DNA from: Anaerobaca lacustris
GTDB lineage: Bacteria; Planctomycetota; Phycisphaerae; Sedimentisphaerales; Anaerobacaceae
Direction of reading: 5' to 3'
DNA length: 64,000 bases
Assembly: GCF_030012215.1 (NCBI RefSeq)
Contig: NZ_JASCXX010000008.1
Span: 1 to 64,000, forward strand
Part shown: positions 40,844-58,732 of the stretch, one piece after another
How the letters are laid out: the number at the start of each line of letters is the position of its first letter
Position numbering within the stretch: the stretch's first letter is position 1
Made by a program: the position numbers and the translations under genes
Notes under the pieces: model-generated
Told to the model about the DNA's origin: nothing
What the model saw: only the letters and a program-made list of their open reading frames with translations
Database searches by the model: none

Positions 40844-41797
40844 ATGAGCGGCAGGGATAAACAGATAGCGCACCTCAATGCGCCCCGCACCCAACGTACA
40901 CCCCCAATCCCCCCAGTAATCAATAATCAATCATCCATAATCAATTCCAAGGCCTTCACGCTGATCGAGCTGCTGGTCGTCATCGCCATCGTTTCGCTGC
41001 TGATGGCCCTGCTGATCCCGGCGCTGCAGCGGGTCCGACGCCAGGCGCGGAACGTGCTGTGCCAGTCGAACCTGCGTCAGTGGGCCATGACGCTCGCCAC
41101 CTACACCGACGCCCACGATGGCCGGTTTCCTTCCGACCTGGGCGGCATGGGCGGCATGTGGCTGCTGCGCGGCACGTTCCTGGGCACCGACGACCCCAAC
41201 AACACGCCCGATGGAGCCGCATTGCACCACTTTCATACCAAAGGCATCGCGCTGTGCCCGATGGCGACCCAGCCGGCTGGGGAGAGAAGCGGGGGCGCCG
41301 TCGGCCCCGGCTACAGACTGGAGCTCCGCTCGGGGTCCTCGACGACGGCCTGGGAGATTATGAGTCCCCCACCGGCTTTCCAGGGCAGCTACGGATACAA
41401 CATGTACCTGTTCCAGGGGTTCAGTTGGAGTCTCCCGTGGTCGCTGATCGCGACGGGACGCGTCGAGCTCAACATCCACACGTTGCGCGACTGCGCGGCC
41501 ATACCGGTCCTCCTGGACGCCTCGGCCCCCTATGCCAGGCCGCGGGCCACCGAGCCGCCGATGGGACCACCCGGCGGTGGCGGCGGTGGCGGCGGCGTGA
41601 ACTGTTTTCTCATGGATCGCCATGGCCGGCACGTCAACGGCATATTCCTCGACTGGTCCGTGCGCCAGGTCGGACTCAAGGAACTCTGGACGCTGAAATG
41701 GGCCTCCGACTACGACCGCCAGGGCCCCTGGACCAAGGCCGGCGGCGTCGATCGCGACCGGTGGCCTCGATGGATGCGAGACTTCAAGGACTATTAG
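40844..41797 (+). CDS. Pseudopilin-like protein with repeat-encoded leader
   Basis: 317 residues. A 37-residue leader (polar, with [10 protein letters not shown] just before the motif) precedes [20 protein letters not shown], the prepilin-peptidase site and helix. The C-terminus [20 protein letters not shown] then DFKDY is shared with the protein at 12831. [16 protein letters not shown] is an odd Gly-rich loop at about residue 240. The leader codons NNQSSIIN derive from an AATCAAT/AATCAAT/CATCCAT/AATCAAT heptamer array that also occurs in non-coding DNA. AGGTAAGGAG lies 9 bp before the ATG. Confidence 0.85.
40918..40946 (+). repeat. Heptamer array inside a pseudopilin gene, copy 1
   Basis: Words AATCAAT, AATCAAT, CATCCAT, AATCAAT, encoding most of NNQSSIIN. 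The unit length of 7 gives a peptide period of 7 residues per three units. Same array as 12449-12483 (intergenic, inverted) and 42080-42112. Confidence 0.8.
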
Positions 41798-41955: not shown

Positions 41956-41977
41956 TCGGCAGGTGGGAGTACGTGGC

Positions 41978-42052
41978 ATGGAGACCGAGGTCCGCACCAG
42001 TCGGCATCCGGCCGCCTATCCCACCCAAGGAGGTGACCCCAATGGCCACTAA
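41978..42052 (+). other. Short upstream ORF overlapping the pseudopilin start
   Basis: 24 codons, [20 protein letters not shown]..., from an ATG with GGGAG 8 bp upstream. Its TAA (42050-42052) overlaps the start of the pseudopilin gene (ATG 42042), so ribosomes finishing here could reinitiate. No homologue known. Confidence 0.4.
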
Positions 42053-42989
42053 CCCGACAAAACGCCGAGCCGCCCCAGGAATCATCAATCATCAATCATC
42101 CATAATCAATCCCAACGCCTTCACCCTAATCGAGTTGCTGGTGGTCATCGCGGTGATCGCGCTGCTGATGGCGCTATTGGTCCCGGCTCTCCGCGCCGCC
42201 CGCGAGCAGGCCCACCGCGCCGTCTGCCTCTCCAACCTCCGCCAACTCACACTCGCCTGGCTAACCTACGCCAACGAGAACGACGGATGGTTGGTCAACG
42301 GCCTGACTTCGACCGGCGGAGGCCGAGATGGCTCCACAACTGGCTGGCTGGGCCGAGCGTTCCTGGAGACCGACCGACAGGCCATTATCGAGCACCCCCA
42401 CAAGGGCAAGCTTTGGCCCTACATCAACGATGTCGACTTCTACCGCTGTCCAAATGGGGAGGCCCGTCATATGGCCACATATGCCATCGTCTCGGCCGCC
42501 AACGGGTTTCTCGTGGAAGGAATGGTCGTGCGGGACAGAACGCCCGGTAGCACGAGGACTTGGACTTATCCAGGCAGGCGCGTTGGCGGAACGGTTCTGT
42601 ATCTACTGAGGTTCGACGAGATCACGCATCCCGGCCCGGGCGATCGGGCGGTCTTCATCGACCAAGGATGGCTTGCTATCGGGGATTACCGTGTGTTGTA
42701 TCTCGCTGGCGCTTGGTCCGGTGTTAGCCCGGCTCCCCTCCATCACGCCAGCGGCACCACGCTGTCATTCGCGGACGGACATGCCGAGTACTGGAGATGG
42801 AAAGGCCGCGAGACCCTAAAGATGCAGCGGAAGATGCTGCCCTACCGCGATTTGTTCAAGCCGTACCTCGTTGACCCCGACGAAACCATTGCCGACTACG
42901 AGCCGCAAACAGAAGATGGGCTCTACGACTTGCAGCGCGTCCAACGCGCCACGTGGGGGCGACTGGGTTACGGGCAGGAGAGTCCGTAG
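42042..42989 (+). CDS. Pseudopilin-like protein with repeat-encoded leader
   Basis: 315 residues. Leader [20 protein letters not shown] then IINPN precedes [20 protein letters not shown]. The leader region [10 protein letters not shown] is encoded by ATCATCA-type heptamers. The middle part contains [20 protein letters not shown] and [20 protein letters not shown], the latter a common motif of planctomycete pseudopilins (S-F-x-D-G-H). The C-terminus differs from the other two pseudopilins here and lacks the WMRxFKDY tail. AAGGAGGTGA lies 8 bp before the ATG. It converges with the propeller gene at 42998. Confidence 0.85.
42080..42112 (+). repeat. Heptamer array inside a pseudopilin gene, copy 2
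   Basis: Words ATCATCA, ATCATCA, ATCATCC, ATAATCA, then ATCCC. Encodes [10 protein letters not shown], directly before PNAFTLIE. Confidence 0.8.
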
Positions 42990-44349: not shown

Positions 44350-45435
44350 CTACGGGTGCAGGATCTTCAGCGCGTTGGTTCGATAGACCTTCTCGAGTAC
44401 CGGATCGCTCAGCGCCAGGCCGTGCAGAGGCCAGTGGTAGCTGAAGAGCCGCCAATAGTAGAAGTGCTCGTCGGCCGACTCCAGGATGCGGAACGACATC
44501 CGGTACACCTCCGGGCTGAAGGTCATGTCGGTCCCGTAGACGAGCCGGTCCTGGTAGGCTTCGAAGAACTTGGCCGTGAAGCGCGGAGTGGCGGCCGTCT
44601 CGGCGAAGCGGGCGCTGATGTCTGCGTAGAGGTTGGGATACTCGTCGAACAGTCCGGCCAGCCGATTCAGATCGTACGAGCAATTGGCGAAGTGACAGGC
44701 GATGAAGATGGTCTTCGGGTGCCGCTTGACGGCCCGTTCGAGGATATCGATCATCCCGGCGTGGCCGACGATGCCCGGCTGATCGTCGAGCCGCCACTTG
44801 AAGGCGTTCATCAGCCCGTCATTGTGGGCGTCCATCGGCTCGTACATCCAGTACGGATCGGCTACGTGGATGTTGATGGGCATCTTCAGTTCGGCGCACT
44901 TGGCCAGCAGCGGGTCCATGCGGGGATCGTCCAGGTGCATCCCCCAGGCCTTGGTGGGCCGGCAGTAGAACAGGCCCTTGCCCTTGTCGCCCAGCTCGCC
45001 GACGCCTCGGGCGCCCATGTCGTAACATCGCTGCAACTCGGCCACCGCCGCCGGGCCGAAGCCGGGCTGATCGTAGCCGGTGTAGTCGAACCCGCACCAC
45101 AACTCGAAGCGATCGGGGTACTTCGAGTACAGCGTGCACAGATCGTCGAACTGCTTGCCCACGGCCATTGTCAAGACGACGGCCTTGGCGATTCCGTGCT
45201 CATCCATGACCTGCACCCAGCGGTCCAGTTGCTCCGGCGTCCTGGCGTAGACGTGGGCATGCATGTCGATCGCCGGATAGCGAGCCTTGGCGATCTCCGT
45301 CACGGGAATCCGGTAGACGGAGCGAGGACGAAAGTCCTTCAACAGCAGCGTATCGGGCGAGGGCTCTTCCGCCGCCGGCGCCAACCCCGCCGAACAACAC
45401 ACGAGCAGCGACACAACAACGATGGTGCGTTTCAT
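44350..45435 (-). CDS. Secreted amidohydrolase (amidohydro_2 family)
   Basis: 361 residues. Signal peptide MKRTIVVVSLLVCCSAGLAP. PAIDMHAHVYARTPEQLDRW has the H-x-H metal motif; PINIHVADPYWMYEP a third His; FIACHFANCSYDLNRLAGLF a fourth; RLVYGTDMTFSPEV the late Asp. This is the metal-dependent TIM-barrel decarboxylase/hydrolase family (PF04909 type). Substrate unknown; export is unusual for this family but frequent in planctomycetes. Leads an operon with the propeller gene. GGAGATC lies before the ATG. Confidence 0.85.
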   Translation of the reverse strand: MKRTIVVVSLLVCCSAGLAPAAEEPSPDTLLLKDFRPRSVYRIPVTEIAKARYPAIDMHAHVYARTPEQLDRWVQVMDEHGIAKAVVLTMAVGKQFDDLCTLYSKYPDRFELWCGFDYTGYDQPGFGPAAVAELQRCYDMGARGVGELGDKGKGLFYCRPTKAWGMHLDDPRMDPLLAKCAELKMPINIHVADPYWMYEPMDAHNDGLMNAFKWRLDDQPGIVGHAGMIDILERAVKRHPKTIFIACHFANCSYDLNRLAGLFDEYPNLYADISARFAETAATPRFTAKFFEAYQDRLVYGTDMTFSPEVYRMSFRILESADEHFYYWRLFSYHWPLHGLALSDPVLEKVYRTNALKILHP

Positions 45436-45613
45436 GGTCGATCTCCTTTCACCCTGGCACGTCGATTCGATGCGAGTTCAATCGTTGGGACCCGTCCCAT
45501 CAGCGGCGAGTCTATCGTATCGGTTCCATCGCCGCAAATGGCTTTTGCGTCGTCCCGCCACGACGCGTGATACGCGATAGCCTGGCAAGAACGACGTTTG
45601 ACAGTGCTGCGAC

Positions 45614-45642
45614 TTGAAAAACCGGATGGTCGGCGATATGCT
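45614..45642 (+). promoter_or_regulatory. Promoter of the sulfatase-like gene
   Basis: TTGAAA (45614-45619), 17-bp spacer, TATGCT (45637-45642), 64 bp before the ATG. Confidence 0.6.
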
Positions 45643-45705
45643 AACAGTGTCGGGCCGGGCCAGCATTCCAGGCGGCCGAGCCCAACGTTCGGGAGGAGGA
45701 CACCG

Positions 45706-47034
45706 ATGAAACGCCGTGCGTTCCTGAAGGGCTGTGCCGCTTCGCTGGCAGGTTTGGCTTCGCCCAATCCGCACATGCTAAAGGTCTGCGCCGCTCCACC
45801 AGCCGAGATGCCGGACACATCCGGCATGAACCTGCTGTTGATCCATGCCGAGGGCCTGACGGCCAATGCCATCGGCTGCTACGGCAACGCACTGGTGCGG
45901 ACCCCGAATCTGGACCGCTTCGCGACGCGAGCGACTCGCTTTACCCGATGCTACTGCCAGACGCCAATGGGCAACCCGTCGCGCGCTTCGTTTCTCACGG
46001 GCCTGCGCCCCGACGCGACGGGGATTCTGACCGACGGCGATCCGGTGAATCGCCTGTCGAGCGCAGGGACGCGATTGTTGCCGGAGATGCTCCATCAATA
46101 CGGCCTTCACACCATGCGTGTAGGCAGGCTGCTTGACGACACAGGCCGGGGCCGCCACCAGCACAGGGTGTGCCGCAAGAGCACAAAGGTGGCGCGCCTT
46201 CTCACGAAGGCCGTCGAAGAAGAAGCCCCCTTCTTTCTCTCGGTAGATTTCTCCGCTCTCCGCACACCGCTGCACTGCCCGACGACCTATCTCGATTCCT
46301 ACGATCCGGCTCACATCCCGGCCCCACAGGCCCCCGCCTCCCGGGACAGAGATGTCCCTGATATCGCCAGGCGATTCGGGCGAAACGAAGAGATCCTCTG
46401 CGGCGACGAAGGGCCCCTGCCGGACGATCCGACGCGAGGGGCCATTCTCGCGTACTACGCCTGTGTTTCGTTTCTCGACGCACAGATCGGAATCGTACTC
46501 GATGCCCTGGACCGGGCCGGACTGAGCCGCGACACGATCGTCCTGATCTTCAGCAACCACGGCTTTCACCTGGGCGAGCACGGGCTCTGGGGCGCGCGAA
46601 CGCTCTTCGAGCAGTCCACCCGCGTCCCCTTGCTGGTCCGCGTGCCCGGCGTGACCACTCGCGAGGTTGTGTGCGATGAGATCGTCGAACTGGTGGACCT
46701 GCTGCCCACCGCGTGCGAGTTGCTGGCCGTGCCGACGCCCGACCGCCTGGAAGGCAAGAGTCTCGCCCCGTTGCTGTGCGATCCCCTTCAACCCTGGAAG
46801 CGGGCGGCGTTCACGGTCTGCGCCACGGCCGACGCCATCGGGCGATCCGTGCGGACCAAACGCTGGCGCTATACCGACTGGCAATCCCGCACGGCCGCAT
46901 CGCGACAGTTCGAACTCTACGACCTGGACACCGATCCGTGGGAGCAGACCAACCTCGCTCTGAATCCCGACTATCGCAACGAGCGTACGATCCTGGCCAA
47001 CCTCCTCCAACGAGGCTGGCGAGCGGCCCAATAG
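45706..47034 (+). CDS. Sulfatase-fold protein lacking catalytic residues
   Basis: 442 residues. MKRRAFLKGCAASLAGLASP is a TAT-type signal. The fold follows iduronate-2-sulfatase-like proteins (TPNLDRFATRATRFT; SRASFLTGLRPDATGI; HLGEHGLWGARTLFEQSTRV). However, the C-x-P-S-R motif that carries the formylglycine reads G89-N-P-S-R; the first metal pair, normally V-D-D, reads H-A48-E49; and the late D-H pair reads N284-H285. All expected catalytic and metal positions except the Arg and His are changed. Either a binding protein or an enzyme of altered chemistry. GGGAGGAGG precedes the ATG. Confidence 0.82.
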   Translation: MKRRAFLKGCAASLAGLASPNPHMLKVCAAPPAEMPDTSGMNLLLIHAEGLTANAIGCYGNALVRTPNLDRFATRATRFTRCYCQTPMGNPSRASFLTGLRPDATGILTDGDPVNRLSSAGTRLLPEMLHQYGLHTMRVGRLLDDTGRGRHQHRVCRKSTKVARLLTKAVEEEAPFFLSVDFSALRTPLHCPTTYLDSYDPAHIPAPQAPASRDRDVPDIARRFGRNEEILCGDEGPLPDDPTRGAILAYYACVSFLDAQIGIVLDALDRAGLSRDTIVLIFSNHGFHLGEHGLWGARTLFEQSTRVPLLVRVPGVTTREVVCDEIVELVDLLPTACELLAVPTPDRLEGKSLAPLLCDPLQPWKRAAFTVCATADAIGRSVRTKRWRYTDWQSRTAASRQFELYDLDTDPWEQTNLALNPDYRNERTILANLLQRGWRAAQ

Positions 47035-47159
47035 GCCTGCGCCTGCCATCGAAACGCACGAAACCGCACGGCAAGGTCCGTAAAAAGTCGCGGCTCAATC
47101 TCTGGCAGGCCCGTCCGTCAGATTTCTTGCGCTCCAGTCCGGAATCGTGATACTGCCCC

Positions 47160-47188
47160 TTGCTTTTTCGTCCGGTTTCGCGTATAAT
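47160..47188 (+). promoter_or_regulatory. Promoter of a 21-residue peptide gene
   Basis: TTGCTT (47160-47165), 17-bp spacer, TATAAT (47183-47188, perfect -10), 33 bp before the ATG. Confidence 0.7.
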
Positions 47189-47221
47189 CTGCCCATACAC
47201 TTTTATGGGGTGGTGCAAGCT

Positions 47222-47287
47222 ATGAACGAGATACTGTTGACGGTCTTCGTGATGCTTCTGTTCCTCGTCGGCGTCACGACACAGTAG
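47222..47287 (+). CDS. Predicted 21-residue membrane peptide
   Basis: MNEILLTVFVMLLFLVGVTTQ: one hydrophobic segment (residues 4-18) flanked by Glu and polar residues. It lies behind a promoter with a perfect TATAAT box, with GGGGTGG about 8 bp before the ATG. The size and form are those of small bacterial membrane proteins or type I toxins. No antisense RNA is evident. Coding status is inferred from signals only; no homologue is known to me. Confidence 0.5.
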   Translation: MNEILLTVFVMLLFLVGVTTQ

Positions 47288-47514
47288 GTTAGGCAACACA
47301 AACGGCAATCCGGCGCCATGGTGGCCCCTGGCCCGGAACCGGACGGAATCGGCCCCCGATCAGCATTCGGGCTCTCCGGATCGCGCCGCTCTGACGCGCC
47401 CCGCTGATGGGTTGTCCTGCCACAGCTTCCCGCTTATCCTCCAACTGCGCCAGCGACCGGCCCTGCGCTCGTGCCGATGGGACCGGCATTTAGCCTGTGC
47501 GTCCGAGAATCCTG
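47288..47514. other. Intergenic, nothing recognised
   Basis: No gene, tandem array or clear hairpin seen. The region is of ordinary GC content and ends at the promoter of the LamG gene. Confidence 0.5.
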
Positions 47515-47786
47515 TTGCATCGCCGGGACCGATCTGCGATAATCGATTTGCGTCGAAACTTGGTTTTCTAACGTGAGCATATGGGGCATGACCGTTTCCG
47601 GCGTCTTGCGGCAGGACGCCTCCATTCGAGTCGGCGCGGTGGAGGATGGGCCGATATCCAGCCCACAGAATCCCGTCAAGAGATCGGGCACATCAGGCGA
47701 TAGAACCAAAGTCTACATCGACATAACAGCAACGCAGTGGCGCACGGTTGGGCGCCGGAGCAATCATCTTTTGATGGAGGATTCTC
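47515..47786 (+). promoter_or_regulatory. Promoter and ~230-nt leader of the LamG protein gene
   Basis: TTGCAT (47515-47520), 17-bp spacer, GATAAT (47538-47543). The leader carries a GGCGTC-loop-GACGCC hairpin (47600-47620) and ends with TGGAGG before ATG 47787. No riboswitch class recognised. Confidence 0.5.
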
Positions 47787-50717
47787 ATGGTTAGGCACGC
47801 AGTTTGTTTCATCTCATTGGTCGCAGCGCTCGGACTGGCAGCGGCCGGTCCGGCGGGAGCCGAACTCGTCGCCTGGTGGACGTTCAACGAAGGGGCCGGC
47901 ACGACCGCGGCCGATGTCTCCGGAAACGGACACGACGGCGCCCTCAACGGCGACGCCACCTGGGTGGTCGGCCATCTGGGCGGCGCCCTGCAGTTCGACG
48001 GCTCCGGCGATTACGTGATGTGCGGGCTCCTGGACATCGATACCTCGGTCACCGGCGGGATGACCGTAACCGCGTGGATCAACAAACCGGCCGGCGGAGA
48101 CTACAAGATGTGCAGCAATCGCCAGGCCGCCAATGCCGCCGGCGGAGGCTTCACGTGCTCGATCTACAACGACCGCATGGAGATGGACATCAGCAGCGCC
48201 ACAGCGCGCAACCTCAATCGGGACACCGACGGTCCGACGATCCCGGGCGACACATGGATCCATCTGGCGTGGGTCCTCGACGACGAAGGCAACACGTTCA
48301 ACGAGTATCACAACGGCGTGCTGGTGGACTCCTCGCCGGAGACCGTCTCCGTCGGCCTCTCGACGCAGAACTTCCGGATCGGCGCCGATTCGCCCAATCT
48401 CGGACTGTACTTCAGCGGAATGATCGACGACCTGCGGGTCTACGATCACGCCCTGAGCGAGGCCGAACTGATCGATGTCATGGCGGGCAAGGCTCCCGGC
48501 TTCGAGAGAGCCGACGACCCACGTCCGGCAAGCGGCGCCATCGATGTCCCTCGTGACACCGTCCTGAGCTGGACCGCCGGCGATTTTGCCGCGACGCACG
48601 ACGTCTATCTCGGCACAGCGTTCGACGACGTCGACGCCGCTGGCCGCAGCAACCCGCTCGGGGTGCTGGTCAGCCAAGGCCGGACCGACACGACGTATGC
48701 CCCGGCCGAGGTCCTCCAGTTCGGACAGACGTACTACTGGCGCGTCGACGAGGTCAATGCGGCCCCGGACAACACGATCTTCAAGGGCGACGTCTGGAGC
48801 TTCACCGTCGAGCCTCTGGCCTATCCGATCGAAGGCGTCGTAGCGACGAGCAACGTGCCGTCGGGCGTGGGCACAGGGCCGGAGAACACCGTCAACGGTT
48901 CGGGCCTGAACGCCGACGACGAGCATTCGATCTCGGCCGGGGACATGTGGCTGGCTCCCGAGAGCGGCGGCGATCCGTTGTGGATCCAGTTCGAGTTCGA
49001 CGCGGTCCGCAAGCTTCACCAGATGTTCGTGTGGAACTACAACGTCCAGTTCGAGCCGGTCCTCGGCTTCGGGCTCAGGGACGTCACGGTCGAGTATTCC
49101 ACGGACGGCGTCGAGTGGGCCGTTCTGGGCGACGTGGAACTGGCCCGGGCGACGGCCACCGCGACGTACACCTACAACACCACGATCGACCTCGACGGCA
49201 TCGCGGCCAAATACGTCCGCCTGGTCGTCAACAGCGGCTGGGGCGTGATGGGCCAATACGGCCTCAGCGAAGTCCGCTTCACGTACCTTCCCGTCCTGGC
49301 CCGCGAACCACAGCCGGCACCCGGCGCCGTCGATATGTCGGTTGAGACCGTCCTGGACTGGCGTGGAGGCCGAGAGGCTGTCTCGCACGAGGTCCTGCTG
49401 GGAACCGATCCGGAGGCGCTGGCCGTTGTCGACGTCGTCACCGCGTCACAATACGATCCCGGCGTGCTCGATCTGGGGACGACCTACTACTGGCGAATCG
49501 ACGAGGTCAACGAGAACGCCAGCCCCAGTGTCTGGGCCGGCGACGTCTGGAGCTTCTCCACACAGGACTATCTCGTCGTGGATGACTTCGAAAGCTACAC
49601 GAACAACATCGATGCCGGCACCACGATCTTCCATACCTGGATCGACGGGTTCGACGATGCGACGAACGGCTCGCAGGTCGGGTATCTCGATGCCCCGTTT
49701 GCCGAGCAGGCGATCGTCCGTGGCGGCAACCAGTCGATGCCTCTGTACTTTGACAACACCTCGGCGCCCACGTCCGTGGCCGACCTGGACCTCGGCGGTC
49801 AGGACTGGACTCGGGCCGGCATCCAGACGCTCGTACTGTACTTCCGTGGCCGGCCGAGCAACACCGGCGGACAGCTCTACGCAAGGATCAACGGCACTAA
49901 GGTTCTCTACTCCGGCGCCGCCGACGTGCTGACCAAGCCGCAGTGGAAACAGTGGAACATCGACGTGGCGTCGGTCGGCGCCAATCTGCGCAACGTCACG
50001 ACGCTGAGCATCGGCGTCGACGGCGGCGGTTCGGGCCTGGTGTACGTCGATGACATCCTGCTGTACCGGGCGGCCCCGGAGATCCTGGCTCCGGCCGACC
50101 CGGGGACCGATGGACTGATGCTTCAGTATCTCTTCGACAACGGCGCGACCGACAGTTCGGGCAACGGCTATCACGGCACTCTGCTGGGCGATGCCGCTGT
50201 CGCGAACGGGGTCCTGAGCCTGGATGGCCTGGGCGACGCCGTGGCCGTCCCGCGAATCGGTGGCGCAGCCGCCACGCACAGGGCGTTCAGCTATGGGATG
50301 TGGGTCAACCCGGCTTCGTCTCTGGCAAACGTCCAGTTCGCCGGCGGCATAAACACCGATGGCTGGGTGGCCGGAGCAGTCCACTTCAAGCTCTCCTATG
50401 GCCTGGTCAACGCGGGGATCAACGGCCTCGACGGCGGCGACCTCCAGGGCGTGACGATGGTCAACGCCGGCGAGTGGAGCCACATGGCCCTGACCGTCGC
50501 CGAGACGCGCGTCGCCATCTATCTCAACGGCCAGATCGAGGATGCGCGCGATCTGTCGGCCCCGATGACGAACCTCGTCGTGGGCGGCGCCTCCCTCGGC
50601 GCCTGGAACAACGGCGGCGATCTCCAGCGCGGGATGGCCGGCCAGATGGACGACGTCCGCGTCTACGACCGTGCGTTGTCCGAGGCGGAGGTTCTGTTCC
50701 TCGCCGACCACCGCTAA
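47787..50717 (+). CDS. Secreted multi-domain LamG/discoidin carbohydrate-binding protein
   Basis: 976 residues. Signal peptide MVRHAVCFISLVAALGLAAA. Order: LamG 1 (ELVAWWTFNEGAGTTAADVS to IDDLRVYDHALSEAEL, about 25-235); Fn3-like domain with TYYWRVDEVN (245-340); discoidin/F5-8C-like domain (IEGVVATSNVPSGVGTGPEN to YGLSEVRFTY, 345-505); second Fn3-like with TTYYWRIDEVNE (515-590); a beta-sandwich starting VVDDFESYTNNID (595-760); LamG 2 (DGLMLQYLFDNGATDSSGNG to MDDVRVYDRALSEAE, 770-970). No enzymatic motif. Probably cell-surface or secreted, binding polysaccharide. TGGAGG precedes the ATG. No C-terminal sorting signal seen. Confidence 0.9.
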   Translation: MVRHAVCFISLVAALGLAAAGPAGAELVAWWTFNEGAGTTAADVSGNGHDGALNGDATWVVGHLGGALQFDGSGDYVMCGLLDIDTSVTGGMTVTAWINKPAGGDYKMCSNRQAANAAGGGFTCSIYNDRMEMDISSATARNLNRDTDGPTIPGDTWIHLAWVLDDEGNTFNEYHNGVLVDSSPETVSVGLSTQNFRIGADSPNLGLYFSGMIDDLRVYDHALSEAELIDVMAGKAPGFERADDPRPASGAIDVPRDTVLSWTAGDFAATHDVYLGTAFDDVDAAGRSNPLGVLVSQGRTDTTYAPAEVLQFGQTYYWRVDEVNAAPDNTIFKGDVWSFTVEPLAYPIEGVVATSNVPSGVGTGPENTVNGSGLNADDEHSISAGDMWLAPESGGDPLWIQFEFDAVRKLHQMFVWNYNVQFEPVLGFGLRDVTVEYSTDGVEWAVLGDVELARATATATYTYNTTIDLDGIAAKYVRLVVNSGWGVMGQYGLSEVRFTYLPVLAREPQPAPGAVDMSVETVLDWRGGREAVSHEVLLGTDPEALAVVDVVTASQYDPGVLDLGTTYYWRIDEVNENASPSVWAGDVWSFSTQDYLVVDDFESYTNNIDAGTTIFHTWIDGFDDATNGSQVGYLDAPFAEQAIVRGGNQSMPLYFDNTSAPTSVADLDLGGQDWTRAGIQTLVLYFRGRPSNTGGQLYARINGTKVLYSGAADVLTKPQWKQWNIDVASVGANLRNVTTLSIGVDGGGSGLVYVDDILLYRAAPEILAPADPGTDGLMLQYLFDNGATDSSGNGYHGTLLGDAAVANGVLSLDGLGDAVAVPRIGGAAATHRAFSYGMWVNPASSLANVQFAGGINTDGWVAGAVHFKLSYGLVNAGINGLDGGDLQGVTMVNAGEWSHMALTVAETRVAIYLNGQIEDARDLSAPMTNLVVGGASLGAWNNGGDLQRGMAGQMDDVRVYDRALSEAEVLFLADHR

Positions 50718-55232: not shown

Positions 55233-58200
55233 CTAAGGCAGCATCGCCAGTTGGGCCCTCGCCCAGACGTGGCTGACGTTGAGCCTGGCCGCCTCGCCGA
55301 ACGCGCTGCGGGCCGCCTCGATCCGGCCGGACCCGAGATAGCCCAGCCCCTGGATGTAGTGGGCCGAGGCGAGCCGGGCCTGGCGGGCCTGCTGCTCGCC
55401 GAACTTCGCGAAAAAATCCACCTCTTCGTCGCGCTCGATTCGCTCGGTCCCCGTTCGGATCAACTCCTCGAAGATCTCCGTGGCCTGCTCCTCGCGACCC
55501 AGCTTGCGCATCGACATCCCGCGATAGAACCGGGCCTCCGGCGCCCATCGCGCACCCGACTGGGCGGCCGACTGCTCGTAGAAAGCCGTCGCCTTCTCGG
55601 CATCGCCCAAGGCTTCATGGGCCTGGGCTGTGTAGTAGGCAAACTGCGCGGCACGCGGATCGTTGCGAGGCCGGCCGATGGAGAGGTTCTCCGGATACTC
55701 GGCCGCCGCGAGGAAATCCTCCAGGGCCTTGGCCGGTTCATCGCCCTTGAGCCGTTCGACCCCGCGAAGCAGATGGGCGTCGACGTAGACGTCGCGAATC
55801 TCCCCGCCGCCTTCGCGAACGTGAAAATGGTGATTCGCCAGATACGAGACGGCCCGGTCGTAATGGCCCGTCAGCACCATCGCCGCAATCAGGCACTGGA
55901 AGCTGTCGTTTCGTTTGATGACCGTCGCATGGTGCTTCTGAAGGATCTCCAGCCGCCTGGCGGGGTCCACGTTGCCCAGTTCGTACAGATGGTCCAGTTC
56001 AGCAAACAACCGAGCGTCGTCACTCCTGCAGGCGACGGCCCTTTCGTAGCTGGCGATGGCCTTGGGCACGTCGTCGGCTGTTCGGTAGTAGGCCCACCCG
56101 AGGTTGCGATGCGCTCCGGAGAGACCCGAGTCGAGCTGAGCGGCCCGCTCCCACTGGGCGATCGCTCGTTCCGGCTGCACCTCGTAGAGCGCGTTTCCAA
56201 GGTAGTACGCCGCACGCGCGTCGTCCGGGTCGCACTCGATCGCAGCGGTCAGCGCCGCAATCGATTCGTGACGGAACGGGAAGCAGTAGTCCGCCGGCAT
56301 GGCCTGCGCCTGCGAGAAGAGCTTTCGGGCCGCGTCGACATTCCCGTTGCGCTGATGGATATAGCCGAGATAGTAGTACACCAGCGGGTAGCGCCCGGCC
56401 GCGTCCGTCTTGTCGCGCGCCGCCCGTCCGAGCACCTCCACGGCCTCGTCCCAGAGCCCCCAACCCATGTAGTCCGTCGCCAGTTCGAGGTACGCCTGCA
56501 CGTTGCGCTGCATCGTCCTTTCCAACCGCTCCAGCGTATTGGCGGCACGGCGCCGCTGCCCGAGGGCCGTCTGGATCAGAGCCAACTCGTTCATCGCAAG
56601 GAAATCGAGCGGATCGCTTGCCAGCACCGCCTGGACGATGGCGAGGGCCTGCTTGAGATCTCCCTGATTCCTGAGCGCCGCGGCCTTGAGATTCCGCGCC
56701 TTTGTGTTCACGGTGTTGGTTGTCAGCGATTTGTCGATCTGTTCGATGGCCATCGCCCAGTCGCCCCGGCCGCACGACAGCTCCGCGAGCTGATGGTAGC
56801 CGGCCGAGTGAAACGCGTGATCCCACGTGGAACGGTGGAAGGCCTCGTACGCCTCATCGAGCTTCCCCTGGGCGCGCAAAGCCACGCCCAGATGGAACAG
56901 GGCCTCGGTGTTGCCCGGCCGCGTGTAGTCGGCCGAAAGCCTCGTCACCGCCCGGCGCAGGTGCTCTTCGGCCTCGGCGTACAGGCCCCGCCGGTTGTAG
57001 TTGACGCCCACGATCGTGTTCGTTCGCATGTCGTTTGGATCGCGCCGCAGGGCCTCTTCGTAGTAGTCGAACGGATCGACGCGGGGGTTGTGAATCTGCT
57101 CGATGCGAAGCCCGGTCAGATACAGTTCCTCAATCGTCTGAACATCCGTGGGTGCCGGCGGGTTCTTCACGGGCTCCGGCAATTGGGAATCGCGTTGGTG
57201 CTCAACGGGTCGATAGGCGATCAGCTCCTGACCCGAGGCGGCCAGCAACGAGACCCGCAGATCGGTGACGTCGACGCCTTCCGGCGCCGCCACTTCCGTC
57301 AGAAACGGCTGGGCCGGACCGATGGCGATCGTCTCGTCCAGAATGGTCTGCCCCGAAGCAGTCAGCAGCACCCTGGCCCTCTTGTGCGGGGCGGTCGTGT
57401 TGAAGCCCAGCCTGACCTTGCCGTCATCAGTCCGTTCGAGGTTGACGGCCGCATCGAGATTGGCGTTCTTAAACCCGCCGATCGCGCGGATCGGATACCA
57501 GCACTGCTGGAACGTCTTGACCTCGTACGGTTTGATCCAACTGTAGTCGGGCTGATTGTCGCTGAACGCGCCGACCATCAGCTCGGCATACGGGCCGTCC
57601 TCATCGGTGAGGATCTTGTCCCACATCCGTCCGCGCGGTCCGGGCCCCCACTCCCACAGCTTGGCCCCGCAGACCACGTGATGGTTGGCCACGTGGACCA
57701 CACCGGCCTGGCGGCCGTGATCGTAGCCGCCCATGAAATCCTCCTGAAGGTCCCAGGCGAAAAAGGAGACGGGCTCCGGGTGGTTCTTCCACCAGCTCAG
57801 ATCCACACCCTGATAGTCCGTACCGCGAAAGCGGCCGGCGCCGATGGGCCAATGGATGAAATCGTTCTTGGAGTGATAGGTCGCAGCGGTGACGCTGGGT
57901 GGAAAGATCACCTGGTAGGTGTCGTCCACGTGGACCGCAACATTGGCCCAGTACAGGACCGAGTGCGGCTGGGCCGTCCGGTTGAACAGCTTCACCGTCG
58001 CCTCGACGTGCGACCGGCCCGGATACAGCGTCACGCCGATCAGCCACTTCATCCGGTGCCGCCGCTCCGTCTCTCCGAACCAGATCGTCTTGCTGCCGTC
58101 GGCGTTCTCGGCCAGCGTGTAATCGACGGGCATGTGCGTCGTGTCGCGATGGTGGTGGAACACGCACCATTCGATCCCGCCGGAAATCCACGCCCCGAGC

Positions 58201-58580
58201 ATGCCGATCAGCGCCGGCTTGACCACGTTCTGCCGGTAGAAGATCTCGTAGTTGTTGGTCTTGTCGGTCGCATAGAACAGCCGCCCCCCGACCTCCGGCA
58301 GAATGCACAGCTTGATGTACTCGTTCTCCAGGTACAGGGCCGTATAGGTCTGCTCCTCGCGGATATTCGTCACGCCGTCCTGCATCGCATAGGGATACAC
58401 CCGCTTCTGCGCCCCCTGATACGATTCATTGGTGTAGAAGCGTGGATTCACGTCGGGCGCTTCGAGCCGATAGGTGGGAAGCGTCAGCGGCTCCTGCCAG
58501 ACCTTGACCGCCGCCGACGCCGGCCCAAGAACGATCAGGACGAGAAGAAACGACAGACATGCGCGTCTTTCCAGTGACAT
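55233..58580 (-). CDS. Secreted DUF5107 and TPR protein
   Basis: 1,115 residues. Signal peptide MSLERRACLSFLLVLIVLGP. Residues 25-330: DUF5107, a galactose-mutarotase-like sandwich (ALYLENEYIKLCILPEVGGR; YTNESYQGAQKRVYPYAMQD; HSVLYWANVAVHVDDTYQVI). Residues 470-1110: at least ten TPR-like repeats (ALFHLGVALRAQGKLDEAYE; AAYYLGNALYEVQPERAIAQ; LGWAYYRTADDVPKAIASYE; YYTAQAHEALGDAEKATAFY). DUF5107-TPR proteins accompany polysaccharide-degradation genes in several phyla. Likely glycan-binding with protein-interaction repeats. GGAG precedes the ATG. Confidence 0.9.
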   Translation of the reverse strand: MSLERRACLSFLLVLIVLGPASAAVKVWQEPLTLPTYRLEAPDVNPRFYTNESYQGAQKRVYPYAMQDGVTNIREEQTYTALYLENEYIKLCILPEVGGRLFYATDKTNNYEIFYRQNVVKPALIGMLGAWISGGIEWCVFHHHRDTTHMPVDYTLAENADGSKTIWFGETERRHRMKWLIGVTLYPGRSHVEATVKLFNRTAQPHSVLYWANVAVHVDDTYQVIFPPSVTAATYHSKNDFIHWPIGAGRFRGTDYQGVDLSWWKNHPEPVSFFAWDLQEDFMGGYDHGRQAGVVHVANHHVVCGAKLWEWGPGPRGRMWDKILTDEDGPYAELMVGAFSDNQPDYSWIKPYEVKTFQQCWYPIRAIGGFKNANLDAAVNLERTDDGKVRLGFNTTAPHKRARVLLTASGQTILDETIAIGPAQPFLTEVAAPEGVDVTDLRVSLLAASGQELIAYRPVEHQRDSQLPEPVKNPPAPTDVQTIEELYLTGLRIEQIHNPRVDPFDYYEEALRRDPNDMRTNTIVGVNYNRRGLYAEAEEHLRRAVTRLSADYTRPGNTEALFHLGVALRAQGKLDEAYEAFHRSTWDHAFHSAGYHQLAELSCGRGDWAMAIEQIDKSLTTNTVNTKARNLKAAALRNQGDLKQALAIVQAVLASDPLDFLAMNELALIQTALGQRRRAANTLERLERTMQRNVQAYLELATDYMGWGLWDEAVEVLGRAARDKTDAAGRYPLVYYYLGYIHQRNGNVDAARKLFSQAQAMPADYCFPFRHESIAALTAAIECDPDDARAAYYLGNALYEVQPERAIAQWERAAQLDSGLSGAHRNLGWAYYRTADDVPKAIASYERAVACRSDDARLFAELDHLYELGNVDPARRLEILQKHHATVIKRNDSFQCLIAAMVLTGHYDRAVSYLANHHFHVREGGGEIRDVYVDAHLLRGVERLKGDEPAKALEDFLAAAEYPENLSIGRPRNDPRAAQFAYYTAQAHEALGDAEKATAFYEQSAAQSGARWAPEARFYRGMSMRKLGREEQATEIFEELIRTGTERIERDEEVDFFAKFGEQQARQARLASAHYIQGLGYLGSGRIEAARSAFGEAARLNVSHVWARAQLAMLP

Positions 58581-58732
58581 GAGCCAGGCACTCCTTTCTA
58601 TGGTCTTCCCTTGTGCTGTCTCGTCCCCGACTCCGGAATTCACACGAGCCGGATGCAAGCCGGCATCATGCTACCAGAAAACGTCCCCATCCACAACCAC
58701 CGATCCCCGCTCCTGCGCTCCCGGGCCGCCCG

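Follow-up and report, generated by a model that had tools for sequence, protein, structure and literature searches.

Sulfatase genes are exceptionally numerous in the Planctomycetes-Verrucomicrobia group, according to passages of PMC6388578, and one gene in the stretch of Anaerobaca lacustris DNA analysed here (64,000 nucleotides, hereafter the window) bears on the use that a sulfatase fold may have once its catalytic residues have gone. The gene lies on the forward strand between positions 45706 and 47034 and encodes a protein of 442 amino acids with an S1_7-like fold; its open reading frame, frame and coordinates are those of a preliminary description of the locus. That description had every key active-site position replaced within an intact frame, and proposed either a retained non-enzymatic role, such as binding of sulfated glycans, or a changed chemistry. 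A search of the open-licence literature for pseudosulfatases or sulfatase pseudoenzymes returned no paper on the subject.

The start codon is preceded by a Shine-Dalgarno-like sequence, GGGAGGAGG (45691-45699, +), and a purine-rich stretch of this kind is present in all six orthologues described below. A promoter scan of positions 45400-47800 gave one promoter-like site (45614-45642, +) and shuffled sequences give 0.6, so that the site carries no weight. An antisense frame (45778-47049, -) was rejected as no more than a shadow of the sense frame: it is open in relatives, but in genome G005 its identity is 49% versus 67% for the sense product. The N-terminus bears a Tat-type signal with the motif RRAFLK (about residues 1-33; 45706-45804, +), and the protein is probably Tat-exported.

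Residues 42-340 of the protein match the Pfam Sulfatase family PF00884 with 114.8 bits (cut-off 25), and there is also a match to SGSH_C with 70 bits. The AlphaFold model, obtained with an 18-row alignment, has a pLDDT of 84.8 and a pTM of 0.85, its weak parts being residues 17-31, 143-150 and 233-235. The ulvan sulfatase of Formosa agariphila (6hhm, titled S1_7) is the top match by sequence, by Foldseek (E 2.6e-33) and by Z (VIA-align: Z 47.6, rmsd 2.0 over 393 residues), and human iduronate-2-sulfatase (5fql/6ioz), assigned to S1_7 in a passage of PMC5066984, comes second by sequence and Foldseek. Model residues 39 to 439 are covered by alignment to S1_7 structures, and as modelled the protein has a complete S1_7 (iduronate-2-sulfatase-like) fold. 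The earlier view that the rest of the fold and the Tat signal are kept is accurate for the core and for the M-K-R-R-x-F-L motif, conserved in 6/6 orthologues. It is too generous on two points: the middle region is shorter than in the intact sisters, 96 columns of an intact sister being gaps here (over residues 111-190), and the TIGR01409 Tat score is below cut-off (13.1 versus 16.7 bits).

The columns which we take to be catalytic were chosen on the basis of general knowledge of sulfatase active sites. This choice was partly checked against PMC5066984 and passages of PMC6388578. In alignment with the intact sisters the C-x-P-S-R column falls on G89-N-P-S-R93 (45970-45984, +), Gly89 standing where a Cys or Ser would be the formylglycine precursor, and the late D-H metal ligands fall on N284-H285 (46555-46560, +), both as first described. 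The metal motif is altered as well, but the column corresponding to (V/I)-(D/E)-D is A48-E49-G50 (45847-45855, +) and not H-A-E, the previous placement being one column off. With E49-G50 and N284-H285 at these places, the S1 metal ligands D-D and D-(H/N) are not present. The intact sisters L075 and L076 read I-E-D at this motif, and Glu is found at that metal column in 19 of the 115 sulfatase-like frames gathered, three being the window gene and two orthologues, so that E49 is probably ancestral as far as the alignment tells. Since E49 is common to the intact sisters, the metal motif has clearly lost only the Asp of residue 50, now Gly. The claim that every key position is replaced therefore stands for the nucleophile, the second Asp and the late Asp, and falls for E49. 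Further losses concern the Lys (to R) and His (to D) of GK..H, the His of KPH (to R) and the Lys of W.K (to A); Arg93 is kept. The GK..H positions were once held by residues 111-175 (46036-46230, +), a region now eroded. Compared with S1_7 enzymes, the protein thus lacks the formylglycine precursor, the second metal Asp, the late Asp and the catalytic Lys/His.

Cys occupies the formylglycine column in 102 of the 115 frames; the 13 others comprise five gaps in partial frames, the window gene with its orthologues (six), and L049 and L118. Its absence from the window protein is not due to chance, because 24 of the 25 frames of the same genome keep it (the window gene is the sole exception in this fetched set, which is not the whole sulfatase complement) and 6/6 orthologues lack it. 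Following the preliminary description, we also considered another Cys at this position, C82 or C84, as a hidden nucleophile, and rejected both: they align with the two Cys of R-C-Y-C-Q in sisters that also have C-N-P-S-R. Judged by these aligned positions, the window protein has the S1_7 sulfatase fold but is catalytically dead. In the aligned sequences of the SulfAtlas paper (PMC5066984) the reported share of Cys is 78.9% and that of Ser 21.1%; the paper also describes nine Planctomycetes/Lentisphaerae sulfatases without the catalytic Arg, possibly inactive; there Arg is changed to Ile or Leu, whereas the window protein keeps Arg93 and has lost the nucleophile and metal ligands. A degenerate site was also observed outside the genus of the clade, in the 510-residue sulfatase-like frame L049 (genome G015, from position 736, +), in which the second Asp has become Gly, the formylglycine motif reads S-L-N-S-R, D-R replaces D-H and more residues are lost.

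The search for orthologues yielded one in each of the six genomes of the genus examined, the window's included (the others are also found in records L099-L102 and L104). They share 51-72% identity with the window protein, and all are in frame, the intact frame reported for the window gene thus extending to its orthologues. The former formylglycine position is G in the window, G003 and G004, S in G005 and G001, and P in G002. The late D-H motif has become NH in the window and G001, YH in G005, EC in G002, AN in G003 and RH in G004, and D-D is retained in G003 alone. Six Cys are invariant, all of them common to L075 and L076; no His is invariant among the six proteins. The G004 orthologue misses 46 of the 58 positions of region 191-248.

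A profile of these six rows was run against the 89 family genomes and against 392 genomes sampled from the phylum; in the phylum sample four candidates were scored per genome, so that rarer relatives may be missed. It retrieved L075, L076, L078, L132 and L133; a further relative, L107, comes from an Opitutales record. C-N-P-S-R, D-H and the W.K Lys are present in all six relatives, and no match to the dead clade was found in the 83 other genomes of the family. L075 (G063; record DQCG01000549.1, identical to L103) is 55% identical to the window protein, and together with L076 (G056) it shares the cysteines and the C-terminal motif of the window protein; unlike that protein, these two sisters have intact catalytic positions and the 96 extra middle columns, across which they are 76% identical to each other. 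In a tree of 23 rows, picked by hand and with a root not inferred by the program, the six dead proteins form one clade (100/98), which joins L075 and L076 at 99/96; a quick tree of 61 rows, taken from the 62 best-scoring of the 115 frames, agrees. Since the sister pair and four more relatives have C-N-P-S-R and D-H, these sequences are most simply explained if the ancestor of the genus lost the site once and each lineage then eroded on its own.

Selection on the gene was assessed by counting estimates, G004 being omitted from the codon analysis and the region trees because of its gaps. In the closest pair, G005-G001, 87 of 977 nonsynonymous and 110 of 331 synonymous sites have changed over the whole gene (Fisher p 8e-24). 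For residues 249-442 the figures are 12/438 and 48/144 (p 1e-21), and for residues 111-175 they are 30/132 and 17/45. The corresponding pN/pS values are 0.36 (residues 1-37), 0.32 (38-110), 0.60 (111-175, the least constrained part), 0.36 (176-248) and 0.09 (249-442). The NG86 ratio of residues 111-175 is 0.86 for G000-G002 and 0.18 for G000-G005, the latter a pair whose synonymous change approaches saturation. Over entire genes, the G000-G005 ratio is 0.21 for the pseudosulfatase and 0.12-0.25 for its neighbours; for G000-G002 it is 0.30, with 0.29 for the neighbouring MipA gene and 0.13-0.16 for the LamG, Gfo/Idh and TPR genes, the pseudosulfatase evolving somewhat faster than neighbour genes in this comparison. 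The gene is under purifying selection, which is strongest in the C-terminal subdomain. Because synonymous change in residues 249-442 equals that of the whole gene, the constraint acts on the protein, and gene conversion or a DNA-level constraint was rejected as the cause of the conserved C-terminus.

This distribution of constraint differs from that of other sulfatases. The C-terminal subdomain (residues 311-442; 46636-47031, +), strongly conserved in the clade with the motif GRSVRTKRWRYxDWQ...RTILANLLQRGW, is more conserved than the N-core (41-110) in 15/15 clade pairs versus 17 of 1288 pairs of other frames, the latter with an N-core identity of 0.5-0.85; the same sequences recur in several pairs, and the comparisons are not independent. 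On a fixed tree, with the clade taken without G004, the branch length for 311-442 is 0.71 inside the clade versus 10.72 in the rest of the tree, and for 41-110 it is 1.45 versus 5.93; the intact sister pair has 0.52 and 0.31, respectively. Relative to the N-core, the C-terminal subdomain is thus more constrained than in other sulfatases. No comparable shift is seen in the middle columns (160-248): their branch lengths are 2.78 inside and 12.15 outside the clade, a ratio like that of the N-core, and the median middle-minus-N identity is -0.18 in the clade versus -0.19 in other frames. The middle region is fast everywhere and not specially so in the dead clade, where, going by the alignment, it is marked instead by deletion and by loss of catalytic residues.

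The account that we consider probable is that the protein is an exported pseudoenzyme which contacts a partner through its C-terminal face. The non-enzymatic role proposed at the outset gains support here from six in-frame orthologues forming one clade under purifying selection. Catalysis would have been lost once, in the ancestor of the genus; the protein, exported via Tat, would act in binding or as a scaffold, about residues 249-442 would provide the conserved site of contact for a partner in the envelope, and the old pocket would be the least likely seat of function. Binding located in that pocket, a lectin-like retention of sulfated glycan without cleavage as the preliminary description had suggested, appears rather unlikely to us. 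The fold can bind without its nucleophile, as entries titled as S1 Cys-to-Ser/Ala mutants with bound substrate or sulfate indicate (6pt6, 6ptk, 7pth), and a variable middle region is usual in other sulfatase frames, so that variability alone does not exclude binding; however, the Lys/His and metal positions of the pocket have gone and vary from species to species, and the 96 absent middle columns belong to a region conserved in the sister pair. Slow decay, in which the function is gone and the frame survives by chance or because folding is still under weak residual selection, is unlikely. The weak constraint on residues 111-175 and the heavy erosion of G004, where the loss in region 191-248 could be early decay, would fit it, but frame and Shine-Dalgarno-like site are kept in 6/6 genomes despite the divergence of the proteins, and a C-terminal subdomain whose rate of change, set against that of the N-core, is lower than in other sulfatases is the opposite of what decay produces.

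Enzymatic readings fare worse than the favoured account of a partner-binding pseudoenzyme. A changed chemistry, that is a new active site within the old fold, could draw on the retained fold and the six invariant Cys, but these Cys are also in the intact L075 and L076, no His is invariant and the former catalytic columns vary without being fixed to any new residue; this part of the earlier proposal is very improbable. That the protein is still a sulfatase in some species, for instance through Ser-derived formylglycine in G005, is the least credible reading and hardly to be expected. A Ser stands at the position in G005 and G001, anSME is encoded in 6/6 genomes, and the G005 context, PMSGPSRNSLLTG, fits by eye the updated PROSITE pattern quoted in a passage of PMC5066984, which together make a nucleophile in G005 not impossible, though the metal ligands are gone. 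Both proteins lack the second metal Asp, the late Asp and the W.K Lys, and the idea is inapplicable to the Gly of the window protein.

A candidate partner is encoded nearby. In the window the pseudosulfatase gene is followed by a micro-ORF, a LamG gene and two Gfo/Idh genes, and then, on the opposite strand, by genes for a MipA-family protein (PF06629; 53685-54455, -), a GGACT protein and a DUF5107-TPR protein. G005 has the same series with a single Gfo/Idh, G003 is without the LamG gene at the corresponding place, and GGACT gave no match in the G002 stretch. On the 18-kb contig of G004 the only matches are to the pseudosulfatase, the micro-ORF region, MipA and 65 residues of the TPR protein, and in G001 the pseudosulfatase and MipA lie on one strand of a 3.5-kb contig, the other neighbours being on a different contig. 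PF06629 has one match per genome in all six, always within about 8 kb of the pseudosulfatase, G001 with the pair set apart and G004 with most of the neighbourhood gone included, and the two genes are convergent in 5/6 genomes.

Other features of the region were recorded alongside. The micro-ORF (47222-47287, +) encodes 21 hydrophobic residues, MNEILLTVFVMLLFLVGVTTQ, and is preceded by a near-invariant leader, GGGGTGGTGYAAGCT, with a TATAAT-like box in the genus that is absent from the promoter-scan list. A 23-base leader-start pattern occurs once in each of seven of the 89 family genomes, namely the six of this genus and G062, which belongs to another one, and its reversed control in 0/89. The DUF5107-TPR gene (55233-58658, -), 8 kb from the pseudosulfatase gene, has a 64% identical counterpart in G056, beside an intact sulfatase. 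On the other side, two neighbouring proteins (40844-41797 and 41973-42989, +) carry prepilin-like N-terminal methylation motifs.

Shared gene order by descent within one genus is the null explanation for the proximity of MipA, and MipA as partner of the pseudosulfatase is speculative. As an exclusive partner it is weakened by a MipA match in 24 of the 83 other family genomes, where the profile search retrieved no protein of the dead clade, and by G062, where MipA, GGACT and the micro-ORF are present with no sulfatase match in the surrounding 17 kb. MipA gave no match in G063 or G056, the genomes of the intact sisters, which are 89% and 70% complete. In its boldest form, which we regard as a doubtful conjecture, the dead sulfatase and the neighbouring outer-membrane MipA would together form an envelope sensor or scaffold. 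The sulfatase would be its periplasmic half, with the C-terminal subdomain docked on the barrel and the old catalytic site drifting freely. The model for this is the MipA barrel of Pseudomonas aeruginosa and MipB, a separately encoded envelope protein of beta-lactamase fold proposed as co-sensor in a passage of PMC10936184. The Pseudomonas partner differs in being a lipoprotein with another fold and in sharing one operon with mipA, whereas the window pair is convergent in 5/6 genomes. A second parallel is YejM/PbgA/LapC, likewise an envelope protein of the wider sulfatase/phosphatase superfamily, which regulates through a partner (YciM/LapB). Its catalysis is disputed, the catalytic residues being apparently misplaced according to a part of PMC7773988, and a Mg-dependent phosphatase being described in a part of PMC7576196. 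Unlike the window protein it has, according to the latter source, five transmembrane helices and a conserved active-site Thr, and the corresponding NCBIfam model NF038282 scores 24.5 bits on the window protein versus a cut-off of 825 (E 7.6e-6, residues 250-335 only).

The PF00884 annotation counts every such gene as an enzyme, and the present case advises caution: the use of sulfated glycans should not be inferred from gene counts alone. Here the loss of catalysis can be located on a tree, intact sisters are available for comparison, and constraint has moved measurably towards one subdomain, so that the purpose of a sulfatase fold after catalysis becomes directly testable.
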